A stretch of 64,000 bases of DNA from Methanomicrobiaceae archaeon (GTDB taxonomy: Archaea > Halobacteriota > Methanomicrobia > Methanomicrobiales > Methanomicrobiaceae). The notes under the pieces are model-generated. The model was given only the letters and a program-made list of their open reading frames with translations, was not told the origin of the DNA and did not search any database. The stretch covers positions 213,990 to 277,989 of the forward strand of contig JAFGNT010000018.1 in assembly GCA_016926855.1 (NCBI GenBank). The letters run 5' to 3'. Positions 43,295-51,913 of this stretch are shown one piece after another; position 1 is the first letter of the stretch, and each line of letters begins with the position of its first letter. The translations under genes and the position numbers were made by a program.

Positions 43295-43562
43295 CTCTCA
43301 ATAATTCCCTGAACACCCCCGTTAGGGAAGCACTCCACGAAAAAGATATCTCCGAAAGCGTTTCGCTGTCGGGGAGGAAAAATGGGTCCGGATACCGGCC
43401 AACCGCCCCTTTCAGTTTCGGAGCGGGGACGAAACCGGCATCACCCGGGAGTGGTACGCACGCGGAGCAGTAAAATACCGGGGGGCTGTATGTCACAGAA
43501 AGCCCCAAGGATTATAAAAATCAACGGTGATTGACTCCTGTATCAGGCCGGAGAGAGACATG

Positions 43563-46229
43563 ATGGTGAACCTGCGTATCGTAACTTTCCTGAGCATTGC
43601 CATTTTCCTCTTTTTCCTCGTTTGTACCGGAACCGTGGGTGCGGAGTGCCCGAAGGGCTGCGAGTGCATGACGCCGGAGACAGCACTGAAAAATGGTTAT
43701 ACCCCCTGCAGCGGGCAGCAGATCCTCTGCGGATATGATACATTCCAGAATCCGATGTATTGCTACCAGATACCGGTTACGACCAAAACTCCCACGCCGA
43801 CGCCGACAACCGCACCGCCCACGACCACTCCGACACCGACTCCGCCGCCCACCACACCGGTACCTGCCACATGCCCGTCCCCCTGCACATGCACGGGCAC
43901 TGCGGAAGCACAGAACGCCGGACTGGACCTCTGCGGGGGCAAGCAGATCCTCTGCGGCTACGATCAGGTGCAGAATCCGATGTACTGCTGGCAGATTCCG
44001 GCGACGACCGTCCCGACCACATCGGCAACGCCGACGGAATCACCGACACCCACGACAGTCCCCCCGACAACCGTCACTCCGACGGCATCGCCGGTACCTG
44101 CCGCCACGACCGTACCTCCGGCAACCGCAACGCCGACACCAACGCCAGCCGCATACAGCTCCGCATTCCTCGACACCCGGACGATTCCGGAAAAACCCGC
44201 TCTCGGGGACCGTGTACGCTATATCGTCACCGCAGCCGATCCCGATGCCACGCGGGTGATCGACATCTGGATGGACGGGCGCCATGTCACCACCTGCCAT
44301 GACGCCGCCTGCGAATACATCTCCCCGCCGGTCGCGTCCGATCCTTTCTTCGGCGCAGTCGCCGCAGACCGCTCCGGCGTCCTGCACGCCGAAGGGTCGG
44401 TGCCCCCCGATGAATACGCCCGTCTCGCACCGGGAGACACGGATCGCGACGGTGTGGACGATCTCTGGGACACCTGCCCGGACATTTCCAATCCCGACCA
44501 GGCCGATACCGACGGCGACGGCGTCGGGGACGCCTGCGATGCCTGCTGCCCGGCATGCGGCGCGGACGGCACGTCCCTCCTGGATCCTGATTACTGCTGT
44601 GCGGATCTCGACCGACTGTACTACCCCTCCTCCGAATCGGCATACACCTGCCGGGACGCGTTATCGGAGTATGACGACGATACGGGACGGGTCAGCTACT
44701 ACTGGGAGGACCTCTACGGCGCCGTGACCCGGAACGGCTGCGGATGCACCGATACGGACGGTGGTGCAGAAACATTCACCTCAGGTAGCGTCTACATCGA
44801 GCGCCAGACTGAGGAGAGCTGCACTGATATCTGGAACGAGATGCGGGGAACGTTCGTGCGCCCCTGCACGCCCGCCCGGACGACCTGCGAGGAGTATGCC
44901 GACCGGTGCGTGAACGCAACCCATATCGAGGAATTTTCCTGCGGGACCGACGGCCTCGTGAGCACCATCACCGCCTGCCCCTACGGCACGTGCGAGCACG
45001 GTGCCTGCACCTGCCCGGATACGGACGGGGGGAACAATCCTTACGTGCAGGGAACAGTGGCAGGACAGACTGATTACTGCTGGAATGCGTTAAGCCTCGT
45101 GGAATACACCTGCGGGCTCGACTATGCGGGCCATTTTGCTGCGCACAGCAGCCTGATTACCTGCCCGTTCGGCTGCGATTCGGGCGCCTGCGTCTGCGAG
45201 GACTCGGACGGCGGGCTCAATTACGACAGAAGGGGGCGTATCGGCACGAACGAGGATTACTGCACCGACTCCCGGACGCTTGTCGAATATTACCCGGACC
45301 GCTCGGGCGGCGGATGTGCGGCTGCGACCGTGACCCACACCTGCGACGGGCTCTGCAGTTTCGGGGCGTGCCAGGCAGCCACGTGCGACGACCGCATCCA
45401 GAACCAGGGCGAAGAAGACGTGGACTGCGGCGGGCCCTGCGACACCGCCTGCGACCTCTGCCATGCGGATGATCTCCCCGACGTCTTTGACTGGCGCGAC
45501 TGGCTGGGTGTGAACTGGATCACGGAGGTGAAAAACCAGGGCAATTGCGGCTCATGCTACGCCTTCGCCACTCTCGCGGCAATGGAGGCGACCTACAATA
45601 TCGAGAACGCCGCTGCGTTCCGGGCGGGAACGCTCGATTTCGGCCTCTACCCCCGCATCAACGCGCGGGGCTTTCCGGAGCTCGACCTCTCCGAGCAGGC
45701 GATCGTCTCCTGCTGGGGTGCCGCGGGAGCGGGCAGCGGCCATTGCTGCGGCGGATGGCCGGGGCCATACCTCTTCGACTACATCCAGGATGACGGCGTA
45801 CCCGACGAGACCTGCTTCCCGTACAGCGACGAAAGCACCTCATGCGGCGAGATCGAAACCCCCGGGTGCTTCCGCCGCTGCAGCGACTGGGGCTCACGGG
45901 TGTGGACGATCTCCCGGGAGCGGGACGTCGGCGACAGTGCGGCGGACGGGATCGAGGAGAGTCGCGTGAAGCGGGCGCTGGTCTGCTACGGGCCGGTGAT
46001 CTCCTGCGACTACAACGCAGGCGACCCCGGCGCCTCCCACTGCATTCTCATCATCGGCTGGAACGAGATCACCCGGGAATGGATCATCAAAAACAGCTGG
46101 GGTGACCTCTGGTCGCGGGGGAGCGAATCCGGAGGATTCGGGTCGATCCCTTATGACCACCGCTGGACCTCCACCTCATGGTGGGAAGTGAACGAAAAAT
46201 GGAACGTCAGGGGGGTGAGGCAGGGATGA
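43563..46229 (+). CDS. Secreted cysteine-rich papain-like (C1A) protease with two six-Cys modules and TSP3-like repeat
   Basis: Signal peptide; CPKGCEC...CGY...YCY and CPSPCTC...CGY...YCW; DTDRDGVDDLWDTCPDISNPDQADTDGDGVGDACD; catalytic NQGNCGSCYAF, SHCILIIGW, IIKNSWG. Confidence 0.92.
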   Translation: MVNLRIVTFLSIAIFLFFLVCTGTVGAECPKGCECMTPETALKNGYTPCSGQQILCGYDTFQNPMYCYQIPVTTKTPTPTPTTAPPTTTPTPTPPPTTPVPATCPSPCTCTGTAEAQNAGLDLCGGKQILCGYDQVQNPMYCWQIPATTVPTTSATPTESPTPTTVPPTTVTPTASPVPAATTVPPATATPTPTPAAYSSAFLDTRTIPEKPALGDRVRYIVTAADPDATRVIDIWMDGRHVTTCHDAACEYISPPVASDPFFGAVAADRSGVLHAEGSVPPDEYARLAPGDTDRDGVDDLWDTCPDISNPDQADTDGDGVGDACDACCPACGADGTSLLDPDYCCADLDRLYYPSSESAYTCRDALSEYDDDTGRVSYYWEDLYGAVTRNGCGCTDTDGGAETFTSGSVYIERQTEESCTDIWNEMRGTFVRPCTPARTTCEEYADRCVNATHIEEFSCGTDGLVSTITACPYGTCEHGACTCPDTDGGNNPYVQGTVAGQTDYCWNALSLVEYTCGLDYAGHFAAHSSLITCPFGCDSGACVCEDSDGGLNYDRRGRIGTNEDYCTDSRTLVEYYPDRSGGGCAAATVTHTCDGLCSFGACQAATCDDRIQNQGEEDVDCGGPCDTACDLCHADDLPDVFDWRDWLGVNWITEVKNQGNCGSCYAFATLAAMEATYNIENAAAFRAGTLDFGLYPRINARGFPELDLSEQAIVSCWGAAGAGSGHCCGGWPGPYLFDYIQDDGVPDETCFPYSDESTSCGEIETPGCFRRCSDWGSRVWTISRERDVGDSAADGIEESRVKRALVCYGPVISCDYNAGDPGASHCILIIGWNEITREWIIKNSWGDLWSRGSESGGFGSIPYDHRWTSTSWWEVNEKWNVRGVRQG
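43785..44150 (+). repeat. Low-complexity Thr/Pro-rich linker-coding repeats
   Basis: Degenerate ccgacgccgacaaccgca-type repeats flanking the second Cys module. Confidence 0.75.
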
Positions 46230-46904: not shown

Positions 46905-47603
46905 TCACTCCTTCGGCCGCGTTGTCTCCTCCGTATGCGATCCTGCACCAAGCACTTCTCCAAGCCCGGCAATCGCCCGTTCCGTCCTCGGGCATGTGAA
47001 CTGATAAACGCCCGAATAACTCGCCATATCCGCTGCAAGTCTCCGCACATCCTCTATTGTGTCAAGATCATACCAGACCGGCAGCAGATACCCTGAGAGA
47101 CCTTTTCCCCGTGTCCTTTCAAGCGTCATGCTGCAAACCCGTGATGTGCTCCACGGCATGTCGGAAAACAGAGCAGGGAGGTGCTGACGGCTCCCAATGA
47201 GATAATACCCGCCGTCGTCACAAGGGCCCAGCACGACATCCCTAAAATCGAGCCGCCGGAGCGCCTTCGTGAGACACTCCGCGGGCAGGTGTGGAGTGTC
47301 GCTTCCCATGAGGATCACCTTCCCGTATCCCATGGAGAACAGTCTCTCTGAGATCCCGGAGAGTTTTCCACCCAGATCTCCATCACCCTGCGCAATGCAC
47401 CGGACCCTCTCCGGTGCCATCCGGGAAAAGAAATCCCCCGCTGTCTCCGGGTCATATGCGACGAAACAATCAGCATCCCGGATTCCTGATACGTTTAAGA
47501 CAGTATCACGGAGAAACGCACCATACAATTCTGCAGCTGCCAGCGGTGTGAGCGGCGGGCAGAGGCGTGTCTTGACGGTGCCCGGCACCGGTTGTTTTGC
47601 CAT
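46905..47603 (-). CDS. GT-A/NTP-transferase-like protein (TIGR04282-like, rSAM/selenodomain-associated transferase 1 type)
   Basis: AIVIMAKQPVPGTVKTRLCPPLTPLAAAELYGAFLRDT; LMGSDTPHLPAECLTKAL; VLGPCDDGGYYLIG; exact start uncertain. Confidence 0.82.
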   Translation of the reverse strand: MAKQPVPGTVKTRLCPPLTPLAAAELYGAFLRDTVLNVSGIRDADCFVAYDPETAGDFFSRMAPERVRCIAQGDGDLGGKLSGISERLFSMGYGKVILMGSDTPHLPAECLTKALRRLDFRDVVLGPCDDGGYYLIGSRQHLPALFSDMPWSTSRVCSMTLERTRGKGLSGYLLPVWYDLDTIEDVRRLAADMASYSGVYQFTCPRTERAIAGLGEVLGAGSHTEETTRPKE

Positions 47604-47629
47604 GATCACAATGGCATTCCGGGGACTGT

Positions 47630-48445
47630 TCAGATTTCTCTCCTCCGCCCGATCCAGAGACCCCGTCCCACTTTTCCGGCATCTGCGGCGTCTGCCCAGA
47701 GTGCGACTCCGCGAACGACCGCCTGATAGAGATCCGACCCGAACCGGTTCATGATCGGTACCCGGAGATCTCCTTCGAGCGTGTCCCGGTACGCCTGGCA
47801 ATGGTCGGCAAAGTCCCTGCTTAAATCGTCTGCGGCTGATACGAGAAACCCATTCTCCCGGAGGAGCCCCGCATACCCTTCAAGCGTTCCGAGCGAGGGA
47901 AAGATCATGAAGGAGACGAGATGCTCCCACTCGCTTTCGGACATAACTCCCGTCTGGATCCAGTCGGTAAAAGCAATCACACCTCCGGGTCTGATCACGC
48001 GTGCGGCCTCGGAAATCAGCCTCTCTTTATCAGTCACATAGCACCAGGCATCCTGCCCCCAGATAATATCGAATGTCGATGCCCGAAACGGTATATCAAG
48101 CGCATTTCCACATTTAAAGGCAACACGCCCCGACAGGCCTGCCAACTCCGTTCTTCTGGCCGCCTCCGCCACCATTTCCGGTGTTGCATCGAGGCCGGTA
48201 ACCCGGCATCCATACGTCCGGGCGAGGTGCCGTGCCGGACCCCCAAGCGCACTGCAGATATCAAGGACGTGGACGTCTGCGGTCACACCGGCCCTCTGTG
48301 CGAGTTCATCTGTCGAATGTCCGCCCCCGACGTGGATTTCTTCTCCCATTACCATTTCCCAGATTTCGCCAACCGCTCCGGCGTATGCCCCGGTCACGTC
48401 AGCGATCGTGACATCCTGTCTTCTCTCAATCATGTGTATCACCAC
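47630..48445 (-). CDS. SAM-dependent methyltransferase (sarcosine/dimethylglycine MT-like)
   Basis: VLDICSALGGPARHLARTYGCRVTGLDATPEMV; AARVIRPGGVIAFTDW. Confidence 0.85.
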   Translation of the reverse strand: MVIHMIERRQDVTIADVTGAYAGAVGEIWEMVMGEEIHVGGGHSTDELAQRAGVTADVHVLDICSALGGPARHLARTYGCRVTGLDATPEMVAEAARRTELAGLSGRVAFKCGNALDIPFRASTFDIIWGQDAWCYVTDKERLISEAARVIRPGGVIAFTDWIQTGVMSESEWEHLVSFMIFPSLGTLEGYAGLLRENGFLVSAADDLSRDFADHCQAYRDTLEGDLRVPIMNRFGSDLYQAVVRGVALWADAADAGKVGRGLWIGRRREI

Positions 48446-49490
48446 CTGTTGTGTAGGGGCAGTTCGGATCCTCCCCCATCATATCCCCGGACGTATAATA
48501 TGCCGTCGCCCGGCACCCCCAGCAGACAGGCTTGTTCTGGCAGGTCGTGCATTTATTGGGCGTTTCTCCGTTCCGGAGCGGTGCAAACGTCAGCTCTCGC
48601 CGGTTTTTGTTGATGATCTCCCGAAACGGCATCTCGCCGATATTTCCAAAACTCTTTCTGATAACAGAACAGGGTGTCACATCCCCGTCAACCGTTACAC
48701 AAACAATCCCGCTGCAGTAGAACTTGTTCACATCCATCGTGCTCATCGAAAGAGGTGATCCGGGATAATTCACCCGGTCCCGGACATCGATGGCATGCCG
48801 GATCTCATCAGGTGTCGGGACCCATTCCGGGTGCTCCGCCCCGAGCCCGGCCATGCAGATCTGTGTCAGGCACGTCCGGATCCCTTTGGAAGCGAAGAAT
48901 CGTATCGTTCTTTCGACATCTTCTCCTGCGAGCGGCCGGGTAAATGTGATGCAGTTAATGATCTCGTCCGGATTCTTGCCACACCTGAGGAGATGCTCCA
49001 CCCCCTCGAGAATCGCACGGATCTTCCCCGCGGGATTTCCCGTGTGGAGGGCTCCATAGATCGTCTCATCGAGGGTGTCGAGATGAACGCTGATAAAACC
49101 GCCATCTGAGGCTTTCACAACCTGTTCTGCAACCAGAGGATCGGAGAGAGGCATGCCGCTCGTCCAGATGTTGTTTTTCAGGCCACGACCCTGTGCTGCC
49201 TCTATCAGTTCGTACCAGTCGCTTCTCATGAGGGGATCTCCGCCCAGCCAGTCGATAGCACGCACATCCAGTGCCACCGCCTCGTCAAGAAGCCGGATTA
49301 TACTCGCCTTTGGCAGTTCCGCAGAGGGTGCGTCTTCCGCTGCCGCGTAGCAGTACCGGCAGCCCTGCGGACAGGAAAGACACGACTCGATCTGGACCGA
49401 GTACACCTTTGATTCCTCAAAAAAACGGGTGACTTCCGACGAATCGGGGTGAAGGCACCCTCCGCTGACCACGGAATCGGGTTCAGCCAT
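48426..49490 (-). CDS. Radical SAM/SPASM protein
   Basis: SCPQGCRYCYAA radical SAM motif; C-terminal CTTCQNKPVCWGCRATAYY SPASM-like cysteines. Confidence 0.85.
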   Translation of the reverse strand: MAEPDSVVSGGCLHPDSSEVTRFFEESKVYSVQIESCLSCPQGCRYCYAAAEDAPSAELPKASIIRLLDEAVALDVRAIDWLGGDPLMRSDWYELIEAAQGRGLKNNIWTSGMPLSDPLVAEQVVKASDGGFISVHLDTLDETIYGALHTGNPAGKIRAILEGVEHLLRCGKNPDEIINCITFTRPLAGEDVERTIRFFASKGIRTCLTQICMAGLGAEHPEWVPTPDEIRHAIDVRDRVNYPGSPLSMSTMDVNKFYCSGIVCVTVDGDVTPCSVIRKSFGNIGEMPFREIINKNRRELTFAPLRNGETPNKCTTCQNKPVCWGCRATAYYTSGDMMGEDPNCPYTTGGDTHD

Positions 49491-49575
49491 CTTACCGACG
49501 CCCCCCCCTGCCGATGTCAGTACGGGCCTGATTACTATACAGGAAATGTGTGAAATACAATATAGACATTCGTGA

Positions 49576-50239
49576 TCATTCTCCGAAGATTCCAATAGAT
49601 GCAAGCGGGAGGAGGAGCATCAGCACCGCCCAGTAAAAGCCGGCCCGGGACACCCGGAATCTCCCGATGGTTTTCACGTATCGTTCCATGATGGCGAGGA
49701 TGACGAGGATGACGAGCATTGCGTTGAAGATCGACGTCGAGGGTTCGTGTTCGACGGAGAGAGAGAAGGAACGGATCAGCGGCGTACCGGCGGACGAGGA
49801 AGGAGATGAACGGCATATGGGCAATTCCTATGTATGCAAGGGTGAGGAGGTGAATCCTGAGCCAGGCATTCAGCCGCGGGGGTGGTCGGACGAGGTCCTT
49901 CCCCGTCTGCCGCTCAATCACAATGACAGCAAGCATTAACGCAAAAAATACACCGGCAATCCCGGTTGCCGTCTCGCCCGAAAAAAAGGCGAGTTCGGCC
50001 GGGACCATAAGAAAAGATGCGATGACGGCGATAATGCCAGAGGACACTGATCGTTTCCATGAAGCAAGCCCGACGATGATGAATATAAGCGCAAACGCGA
50101 AGTTATGAGCCCAGCGCACATCACCCTCGTAGAGAGGGAAGGCAGGGCCCAGCCAGAAGACCAGCCAGGCAACTCCGAGGATCAGCACGCCGAATCCTGC
50201 TGTCATTACCCGTTCGTAATCGATCCTCATAACCGCCAA
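49576..50239 (-). pseudogene. Integral membrane protein, apparently frameshifted
   Basis: N-terminal frame has four or more TM helices then degrades after SFLVRRYAADP; continuation PLIRSFSLSVEHEPSTSIFNAMLVILVILAIMERYVKTIGRFRVSRAGFYWAVLMLLLPLASIGIFGE is in another frame (ORF 49576-49824); junction near a (GA)5 tract at 49757-49766. Confidence 0.75.
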
Positions 50240-50290
50240 TTCTGCATGTCAACTAATAAATGTGACGAGCGCTTCCGCTATTCAGATGAT

Positions 50291-51007
50291 ATGTTGGAGG
50301 GAGCAATCCCGATGCCCCTGATCTCGATCATCACGCCGGTCCTGAATGAAGAGGCAGTCATCGGGCCGTTTCTTGACAATCTTGCCCACATGCAGGGAGA
50401 TTTCGAACTGATCGTCGCAGACGGCGGGAGTTCGGACGGGACGGTTGCGGCAATCGAGCAGTGCCGCCCGGAATTCCCGGCACCCCTGACACTCCTCACG
50501 GCTCCGACGGGCAGGGGTATCCAGATGAATGCAGGAGCGGCAGTCGCCCGCGGGGATATCCTCCTTTTTTTGCATGTCGACTGCACGATACCGGATGATG
50601 CCCTGTTCGTCATAAAAAAGACGTGCGAAACGGATGGCGTTGTGGGCGGTGCGTTTCGGCAGTCGTTTCCGGACCCTGATCTCTTCTTTGTCCTATCGAG
50701 CGGGATTGTTAATCTGCTCGCGAAATATACGGGAATTTTCTTCGGAGATTTCGGGATATTTATTAAAAAAGAGTTTTTTTCACAGTCCGGCGGTTATGAG
50801 CCGATTCATTACATGGAGGATGTGGAATTCTGCCGGTCAGCACAGCGGCACGGGCGTCTGGTGCAGGTCGACCGGGTTATTCTGAGCTCACCGCGCCGGT
50901 TTTTGAAGGTGGGGAGGGTGAGGCTGGTTGTAGTTTATGCACTTGCGTGTGTGTTGAACGGATTTGGGATTCGGCCGGTTTTTTTGAGGAGAATCATCTC
51001 AGACTAA
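50291..51007 (+). CDS. Family 2 glycosyltransferase (TIGR04283-like, rSAM/selenodomain-associated transferase 2 type)
   Basis: PLISIITPVLNEEAVIGPFLDNL; VADGGSSDGTVAAIEQ; GRGIQMNAGAAVARGDILLFLHVDC; alternative start 50312. Confidence 0.85.
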   Translation: MLEGAIPMPLISIITPVLNEEAVIGPFLDNLAHMQGDFELIVADGGSSDGTVAAIEQCRPEFPAPLTLLTAPTGRGIQMNAGAAVARGDILLFLHVDCTIPDDALFVIKKTCETDGVVGGAFRQSFPDPDLFFVLSSGIVNLLAKYTGIFFGDFGIFIKKEFFSQSGGYEPIHYMEDVEFCRSAQRHGRLVQVDRVILSSPRRFLKVGRVRLVVVYALACVLNGFGIRPVFLRRIISD

Positions 51008-51175
51008 AAAATCCGAAAGATTTCAGAAACCGATAATCTCCTTTGAGATCAGGATCGTTTCATTAGACTCTGTAAAAGAGAGGCGTGTTTGAGGATCGGG
51101 TGCGGCAGAGGTATTGATCAGTGATTATATTTATCATTCCTATGCACATTCCCTTATTATTCTGAGGAGAATATG

Positions 51176-51913
51176 ATGAACTGCTCCCAAAAATTTTTCA
51201 CGATCCTGTTCATTGCGGCCGCATCCATAGTACTGCTCTGCGGGGCAGCCAATGCCGTTTGTCCCTGCATGATTCCGGATGAGGCACCAGCCTCAGGATC
51301 CCTGCCCTGTGACGCGGAACAGATACCCCGTGGCTATGCCACGGAACAACAGCCAAAGTATTCCTTCCAATCGCCTTCCGTTTCTCCGACGGCTGATCCG
51401 GATTATGTCGACAACACCCCCCCGTCAATAACAATCCGTAAACAGCAGGAGACCTGGGCCCCCGGCGACCGGGTGGAGTACAGGGTAACGGCATCTGACG
51501 AGAGCGGGATTTCATATATAGAATTATGGGCAAACGGCGGCCGGCTCAGGGTATGTTTTGCCGATACCTGCGATTACGTCACCCCCCCGTTGACGTACGA
51601 GATAGAATTCGGCGTGATTGCGGCTGACCGGCACGGGAATCTCTGCCGGGAGGGAAACGTCCCCCCCGATGCAAGAGGTTTTTTCGAGTCCTCAGATGAA
51701 CAGACCGGGGGGGACGTGTGCACAACCTGCACAGCGGCGTCTACTCCGCAAAAAACGGACGACTGGCGTGAAAGTCTTTTCCTGCCCTGCCGCATCCTTT
51801 CCACGTATAAAATCGCCCTCGGGGCCACCATTCACTGGGAGGCATTTCCTGATGCCGCACCGGAGAGCGAGTGCACCACCTGCAACAGTATCCAATACCT
51901 AAAGGGGGCCTGA
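51176..51913 (+). CDS. Secreted protein, divergent paralog of the N-terminal region of the 43.5 kb protease
   Basis: Signal peptide; CPCMIPDEAPASGSLPCDAEQIPRGYATEQQPKYSF vs protease module; GDRVEYRVTASDESGISYIELWANGGRLRVCFADTCDYVTPPLTYEIEFGVIAADRHGNLCREGNVPPD vs GDRVRYIVTAADPDATRVIDIWMDGRHVTTCHDAACEYISPPVASDPFFGAVAADRSGVLHAEGSVPPD. Confidence 0.82.
   Translation: MNCSQKFFTILFIAAASIVLLCGAANAVCPCMIPDEAPASGSLPCDAEQIPRGYATEQQPKYSFQSPSVSPTADPDYVDNTPPSITIRKQQETWAPGDRVEYRVTASDESGISYIELWANGGRLRVCFADTCDYVTPPLTYEIEFGVIAADRHGNLCREGNVPPDARGFFESSDEQTGGDVCTTCTAASTPQKTDDWRESLFLPCRILSTYKIALGATIHWEAFPDAAPESECTTCNSIQYLKGA

Follow-up and report, generated by a model that had tools for sequence, protein, structure and literature searches.

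A conserved radical SAM/methyltransferase gene pair and its linked transferases in a Methanomicrobiaceae archaeon: a candidate accessory biosynthetic cassette

Gene content of the locus

Five neighboring genes in a 64,000-nucleotide stretch of contig JAFGNT010000018.1 from a Methanomicrobiaceae archaeon (the window, located on contig C27 of a 2.0-Mb genome, G000, that is 89% complete) encode a radical S-adenosylmethionine (SAM) enzyme with a SPASM domain, a SAM-dependent methyltransferase, a membrane protein and two transferases of the families TIGR04282 and TIGR04283 (Table 1). Starting from 50.2 kb, the minus strand carries the genes for the membrane protein, the radical SAM enzyme, the methyltransferase and the TIGR04282 transferase in that order, and the TIGR04283 gene diverges from the membrane protein gene. 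The five genes lie where the original prediction had placed them, and its assignments of four of their products are borne out by curated NCBIfam cut-offs for the two outer genes, by Pfam for the class I methyltransferase, and by Pfam together with a CPQGCRYC motif at residues 40-47 for the radical SAM enzyme. The original prediction also described the genes as a candidate uncharacterized modification cluster, and a conserved, uncharacterized cluster agrees with the retention of the neighbors in related and distant genomes and with the position of the radical SAM enzyme and the methyltransferase outside curated families. Because both transferases fall into the named families and the neighborhood is conserved, neither of the two objections raised with that prediction (transferases of unrelated families, or neighbors that are not kept in related genomes) applies. 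The start codon of the TIGR04282 gene is uncertain, as its open reading frame (ORF) reaches 47801 and the domain begins at about 47612.

Table 1. Positions of the five cluster genes in the window
Feature	Position	Strand	Evidence
TIGR04282 transferase (DUF2064, CofC-like)	46905..47609	minus	NCBIfam 190.1 bits (cut-off 134); Pfam DUF2064
Class I SAM methyltransferase	47630..48433	minus	Pfam Methyltransf_11/25; no NCBIfam equivalog over cut-off
Radical SAM/SPASM enzyme, 354 aa	48426..49490	minus	Pfam Radical_SAM and SPASM
Membrane protein gene (7-helix family, ~220 aa), frameshifted	49576..50230	minus	Homology to intact family members
TIGR04283 family 2 glycosyltransferase (GT2)	50312..51007	plus	NCBIfam 192.7 bits (cut-off 182); Pfam Glycos_transf_2

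The membrane protein gene is present as predicted, but the ORF originally assigned to it (49535-50239) is not a single intact gene. The first two thirds of the window copy show homology to an intact protein family of about 220 aa and the homologous C-terminal third is in a different frame, with the switch near 49762-49779 in a CT-rich tract; the other aligned family members are intact. The frameshift could be an assembly or sequencing error or a real mutation. A 31-base pattern spanning it had no match in viral contigs, a result that is uninformative. Intact homologues of about 220 aa are present in archaeal clusters, and a Pfam search of the protein returned no family. The AlphaFold2 model of an intact homologue (predicted local distance difference test score, pLDDT, 87) consists of about seven long helices, and a fold search with this model found no PDB match at E<=0.001. 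In the Bathyarchaeal homologues L042:7468-8631 and L046:9599-10762, a ferritin-like domain is fused at the N terminus (Pfam Ferritin 3e-19 in L042). In a Thermoplasmatales locus (L066:9581-11697), the membrane protein gene lies between two TIGR04283-like genes, of which one is very divergent.

Conservation of the cluster

Among 60 relatives, orthologues of the radical SAM enzyme occur in four other genomes (54-58% identity), all of which have the block consisting of a divergent TIGR04283 gene followed by the genes for the radical SAM enzyme, the methyltransferase and TIGR04282. TIGR04282 and TIGR04283 proteins scoring over their cut-offs are confined to exactly the same six of the 60 relatives, five of which possess the radical SAM enzyme. 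The sixth (G033) carries TIGR04283 and TIGR04282 genes back to back (L121:6495-8089), with a trehalose-phosphate synthase-like gene nearby, and lacks the radical SAM gene. When 149 genomes were drawn from the class, the radical SAM gene was present in 18 of them. A TIGR04282 gene over cut-off lies within about 2 kb of it in 18/18, and of the remaining class genomes only G033 has TIGR04282. Although related genomes are not independent samples, the carriers span six genera and the association is sharp. Carriers of the cluster include the cultured species Methanoculleus sediminis, and the nearest radical SAM relatives of the window copy are from Methanoregulaceae.

The contigs of 84,980 species genomes were scanned with two short peptide patterns, which yielded 68 relatives of the radical SAM enzyme; because the scan relies on these patterns, the distribution is a lower bound. 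The archaeal hosts are Methanomicrobiales, Methanoperedens/ANME-2 (ANME, anaerobic methanotrophic archaea), Thermoplasmatota and Bathyarchaeota, and the bacterial hosts are Chlorobi, Myxococcota, Gemmatimonadota and Chloroflexota. The methyltransferase gene directly follows the radical SAM gene in the same orientation in all 65 loci in which both genes are readable, with a median gap of 9 bp, and the two genes are thus an inseparable pair. The five-gene order of the window recurs in seven other archaeal loci, which belong to Methanoregulaceae, Methanoperedens, other Methanosarcinales including ANME-2, Thermoplasmatota and Bathyarchaeota (the latter with an additional membrane protein homologue), and 14 loci have the same order minus the membrane protein gene. 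The pair is linked with TIGR04282 and TIGR04283 in most archaea and some bacteria, and often with the membrane protein in archaea. Bacterial loci with linked TIGR04282 and/or TIGR04283 are found in Chlorobi (L087, L088), Gemmatimonadota (L098), Myxococcota (L099, L101) and Chloroflexota (L100).

Distances between the radical SAM sequences are correlated with those between the methyltransferases (Mantel r 0.84 overall, 0.94 in archaea and 0.89 in Chlorobi), and none of 2000 permutations gave a correlation as high. In the radical SAM tree, bacteria and archaea fall on separate sides and most phyla form single groups. A universal presence of the pair in Chlorobiaceae was considered and dropped, as the radical SAM gene is found in 16 of 41 genomes of that family. 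This patchiness, together with the 18 of 149 class genomes, indicates an accessory pathway rather than core metabolism.

The radical SAM enzyme and its partner methyltransferase

The radical SAM cluster motif of the enzyme is C40-x3-C44-x2-C47, and its SPASM motif comprises C259-x9-G-x4-C274, C314-x2-C317-x5-C323-x2-C326 and C344. All seven SPASM cysteines are invariant across the 68 sequences, and two auxiliary clusters are therefore expected. The motif differs from the usual SPASM motif in having CX2C rather than CX3C, and the enzyme has two extra cysteines, C180 and C207, which are invariant in 68/68 sequences, lie outside both motifs and are located in predicted barrel strands (177-183 and 205-210) of an AlphaFold2 model (pLDDT 92). 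Such a cysteine acts as hydrogen-atom donor in some radical SAM enzymes, and by analogy it is possible that C180 and/or C207 serves as hydrogen-atom donor or substrate ligand. Cys223 of EpeE has been proposed as a hydrogen-atom donor (PMC8326336). No curated NCBIfam equivalog was reached over its cut-off. The closest curated families are AhbD, NirJ and PqqE, from which the enzyme is set apart by scores of some 60 to 100 bits where the cut-offs are 381-650. PqqE is the best PDB sequence match, and a search of plasmids returned distant matches only (<60% identity), the best of which were of the PqqE and MftC type. One radical SAM copy, in Chlorobiaceae genome G107 (contig C51:35435-36496), contains an in-frame TAA and is possibly decaying.

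The methyltransferase shares its fold with RebM-like sugar O-methyltransferases, phosphoethanolamine methyltransferases (PMT) and sarcosine/dimethylglycine N-methyltransferases (SDMT). It aligns over nearly its full length with these enzymes and over most of its length with a D-glucose O-methyltransferase. Where these relatives share a histidine (QDAFLHSPDK in SDMT, RDTILHIQDK in PMT, LESLHHMPDR in RebM-like enzymes), the cluster methyltransferase has an invariant tyrosine, Tyr131, in the motif QDAWCYVTDK. The protein scores 97.6 bits with the sarcosine/dimethylglycine methyltransferase model NF041675, against a cut-off of 550, and also lacks the active-site histidine. Its structurally characterized relatives have small-molecule substrates (phosphoethanolamine, D-glucose; MitM). 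Identity to the window methyltransferase is 54-59% in Chlorobi, Gemmatimonadota and Chloroflexota and 40-43% in Myxococcota, and that of the radical SAM enzyme falls to 39-46%. This conservation of the methyltransferase across phyla suggests one conserved substrate.

Two proteins of Chlorobaculum, NmbA (CT1040, N-methyl-bacillithiol synthase) and CT1213, were considered as the paired enzyme. Both are reportedly present throughout the Chlorobiaceae (PMC6282198). Because the radical SAM gene occurs in only part of that family, the paired methyltransferase is probably neither of them, a judgment made from distribution and not from sequence.

Relationship to arsenosugar biosynthesis

The names of the TIGR04282 and TIGR04283 families derive from their association with the radical SAM protein ArsS. 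The original prediction suggested a variant pathway leading to an arsenosugar-like compound, another glycoside or a peptide. That the pathway is a variant is upheld and another glycoside survives as product, but the arsenosugar option is unsupported and a peptide is probably not involved (see below). In the source genome, at its stated completeness, no protein exceeded the cut-off for ArsS (TIGR04167; 21.5 bits for the cluster enzyme and 41.9 bits for the best protein in the genome, cut-off 300) or for ArsM (NF008823; 50 bits for the cluster methyltransferase, cut-off 263). The arsenosugar ArsM model NF038099 matched 17 of 23 methyltransferase members, at best with 2e-7. TIGR04282 over cut-off is present in 25 of 32 cluster-bearing genomes, and ArsS in two. 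On the basis of the searches of the source genome and the near-absence of ArsS from the cluster-bearing genomes, the canonical arsenosugar pathway is rejected.

One of the genomes with ArsS, Chlorobium G067, has a carotenoid-desaturase-like gene followed directly by ArsS, TIGR04282 and TIGR04283 genes in a row (L122:2738-5242). On the contig, ArsS with its own transferase pair lies at about 134 kb and the radical SAM gene of the cluster at about 148 kb, some 13 kb apart. In another Chlorobi locus (L124:2571-5527), the transferase pair follows the same carotenoid-desaturase-like gene without ArsS. Since the transferase pair stands beside ArsS and elsewhere, it appears to be portable, a module used by at least two different radical SAM systems. 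Literature searches on TIGR04282, TIGR04283 and arsenosugar gene clusters yielded nothing on function. The database name "arsenosugar biosynthesis" is too narrow for these two families.

The arsenosugar module (ArsM, ArsS/TIGR04167, TIGR04282 and TIGR04283) and the cluster have in common a SAM methyltransferase, a radical SAM enzyme and the two transferase families. It is conceivable, if unlikely, that the cluster forms an organoarsenical by an arsenosugar-like route in which its methyltransferase and radical SAM enzyme replace ArsM and ArsS, so that arsenic would be methylated, a 5'-deoxyadenosyl group added, and the product processed and glycosylated by TIGR04282 and TIGR04283. This would agree with the shared four-part logic, with the order of genes after ArsS in Chlorobium G067 and with Synechocystis, where, according to work cited in PMC8552651, SsArsM and SsArsS carry out the first steps of arsenosugar synthesis. 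Unlike the arsenosugar enzymes, however, those of the cluster fall outside the ArsM and ArsS families by the scores given above, the radical SAM enzyme is of the SPASM type with two auxiliary-cluster motifs, the methyltransferase has a single invariant cysteine (C130), ArsS is in just two of the 32 genomes, and no link to arsenic was found.

Proposed function

With moderate confidence, the locus is interpreted as a patchy accessory biosynthetic cassette with a core of radical SAM enzyme and methyltransferase, which would yield a small molecule that is both methylated and glycosylated. The radical SAM enzyme would act on a small polar metabolite by 5'-deoxyadenosyl radical chemistry, possibly with the involvement of C180 and/or C207, and the methyltransferase would methylate the same molecule as an N- or O-methyltransferase from the phosphobase/sarcosine-methyltransferase lineage. 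The TIGR04282/TIGR04283 pair may then activate a sugar and transfer it onto the product, which the 7-helix membrane protein may place or move at the membrane.

Several observations weigh against this interpretation. The pair lacks linked transferases in 23 loci, one myxococcal and 22 from Chlorobi, where this applies to most loci. The transferases also occur away from the pair (in G033, beside ArsS in L122 and beside the carotenoid-desaturase-like gene in L124) and may have a function of their own as a portable module. The membrane protein gene is absent from four cluster-bearing genomes, two of the Methanoculleus type and two others. SPASM radical SAM enzymes of known function act mostly on peptides or tetrapyrroles, and the substrate, product and activity proposed here are all putative.

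A related scheme, which seems doubtful, keeps the arsenosugar logic without arsenic. The methyltransferase would methylate a heteroatom (nitrogen, sulfur or selenium), the SPASM radical SAM enzyme would couple a SAM-derived 5'-deoxyadenosyl or ribosyl group to it or else remodel it via C180/C207, and TIGR04282 and TIGR04283 would yield a glycoside. If true, this would be a new metabolite class common to methanogens, ANME archaea and green sulfur bacteria.

Alternatively, the SPASM enzyme could modify a peptide that is subsequently methylated and glycosylated, as in a ribosomally synthesized and post-translationally modified peptide (RiPP) or protein modification pathway. Besides the SPASM domain itself, the fold matches of the radical SAM model in the PDB point in this direction, since SkfB, SuiB, a sactipeptide maturase and PqqE are among the closest, along with BlsE and MoaA. 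Mycofactocin biosynthesis likewise pairs a SPASM radical SAM enzyme (MftC) with a GT2 related to TIGR04283 (MftF) and includes a SAM methyltransferase, MftM. The cluster enzyme, however, reaches 55.9 bits with the MftC model (TIGR03962), far under the cut-off of 265, and no precursor or chaperone genes were found in the operon. The median gaps in the operons do not exceed 70 bp and could not accommodate a precursor gene. Neither the 354-aa protein nor its model has an N-terminal recognition domain (RRE), as only about 30 residues with two short helices precede the barrel. No conserved peptide gene was found among neighbors of at least 70 aa, shorter ORFs and unlinked precursors not having been screened. 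A peptide is thus probably not the substrate, and the RiPP alternative is improbable.

There is likewise a small chance that the radical SAM enzyme, as kin of AhbD and NirJ, has a tetrapyrrole or another cofactor as its substrate and that the methyltransferase and transferases finish the modified cofactor. NirJ2 and AhbD are the best NCBIfam relatives of all 33 members scanned, the hosts are mostly tetrapyrrole-rich anaerobes, and a ferritin domain is fused to the Bathyarchaeal membrane homologues. All scores are nevertheless far under the equivalog cut-offs (101 bits against 500; 100.6 and 98.4 bits for the window protein with the AhbD and NirJ models), the methyltransferase belongs to no tetrapyrrole family, and the patchy presence in the class and in Chlorobiaceae favors an accessory product. 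A chance neighborhood of unrelated genes, which the common enzyme folds of the outer genes and the broken membrane protein gene might suggest, is extremely improbable and is refuted by the neighborhood survey, in which gene order and co-occurrence are conserved and the block recurs over many genera and phyla.

For the accessory cassette favored here, the survey now ties a strict radical SAM/methyltransferase pair without a curated family to two transferase families. The invariant C180 and C207 of the radical SAM enzyme and Tyr131 of the methyltransferase provide a signature for chemical tests, and because the cluster occurs in cultured organisms (M. sediminis, locus L060, and Chlorobaculum thiosulfatiphilum, locus L084, which has the pair only), the product is open to direct search.

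Neighboring genes in the window

A large secreted protease of the papain family, which contains a thrombospondin type 3 repeat, is encoded at 43527-46229 of the window. A neighboring small secreted protein (51173-51913) appears to resemble parts of the N-terminal region of the protease.

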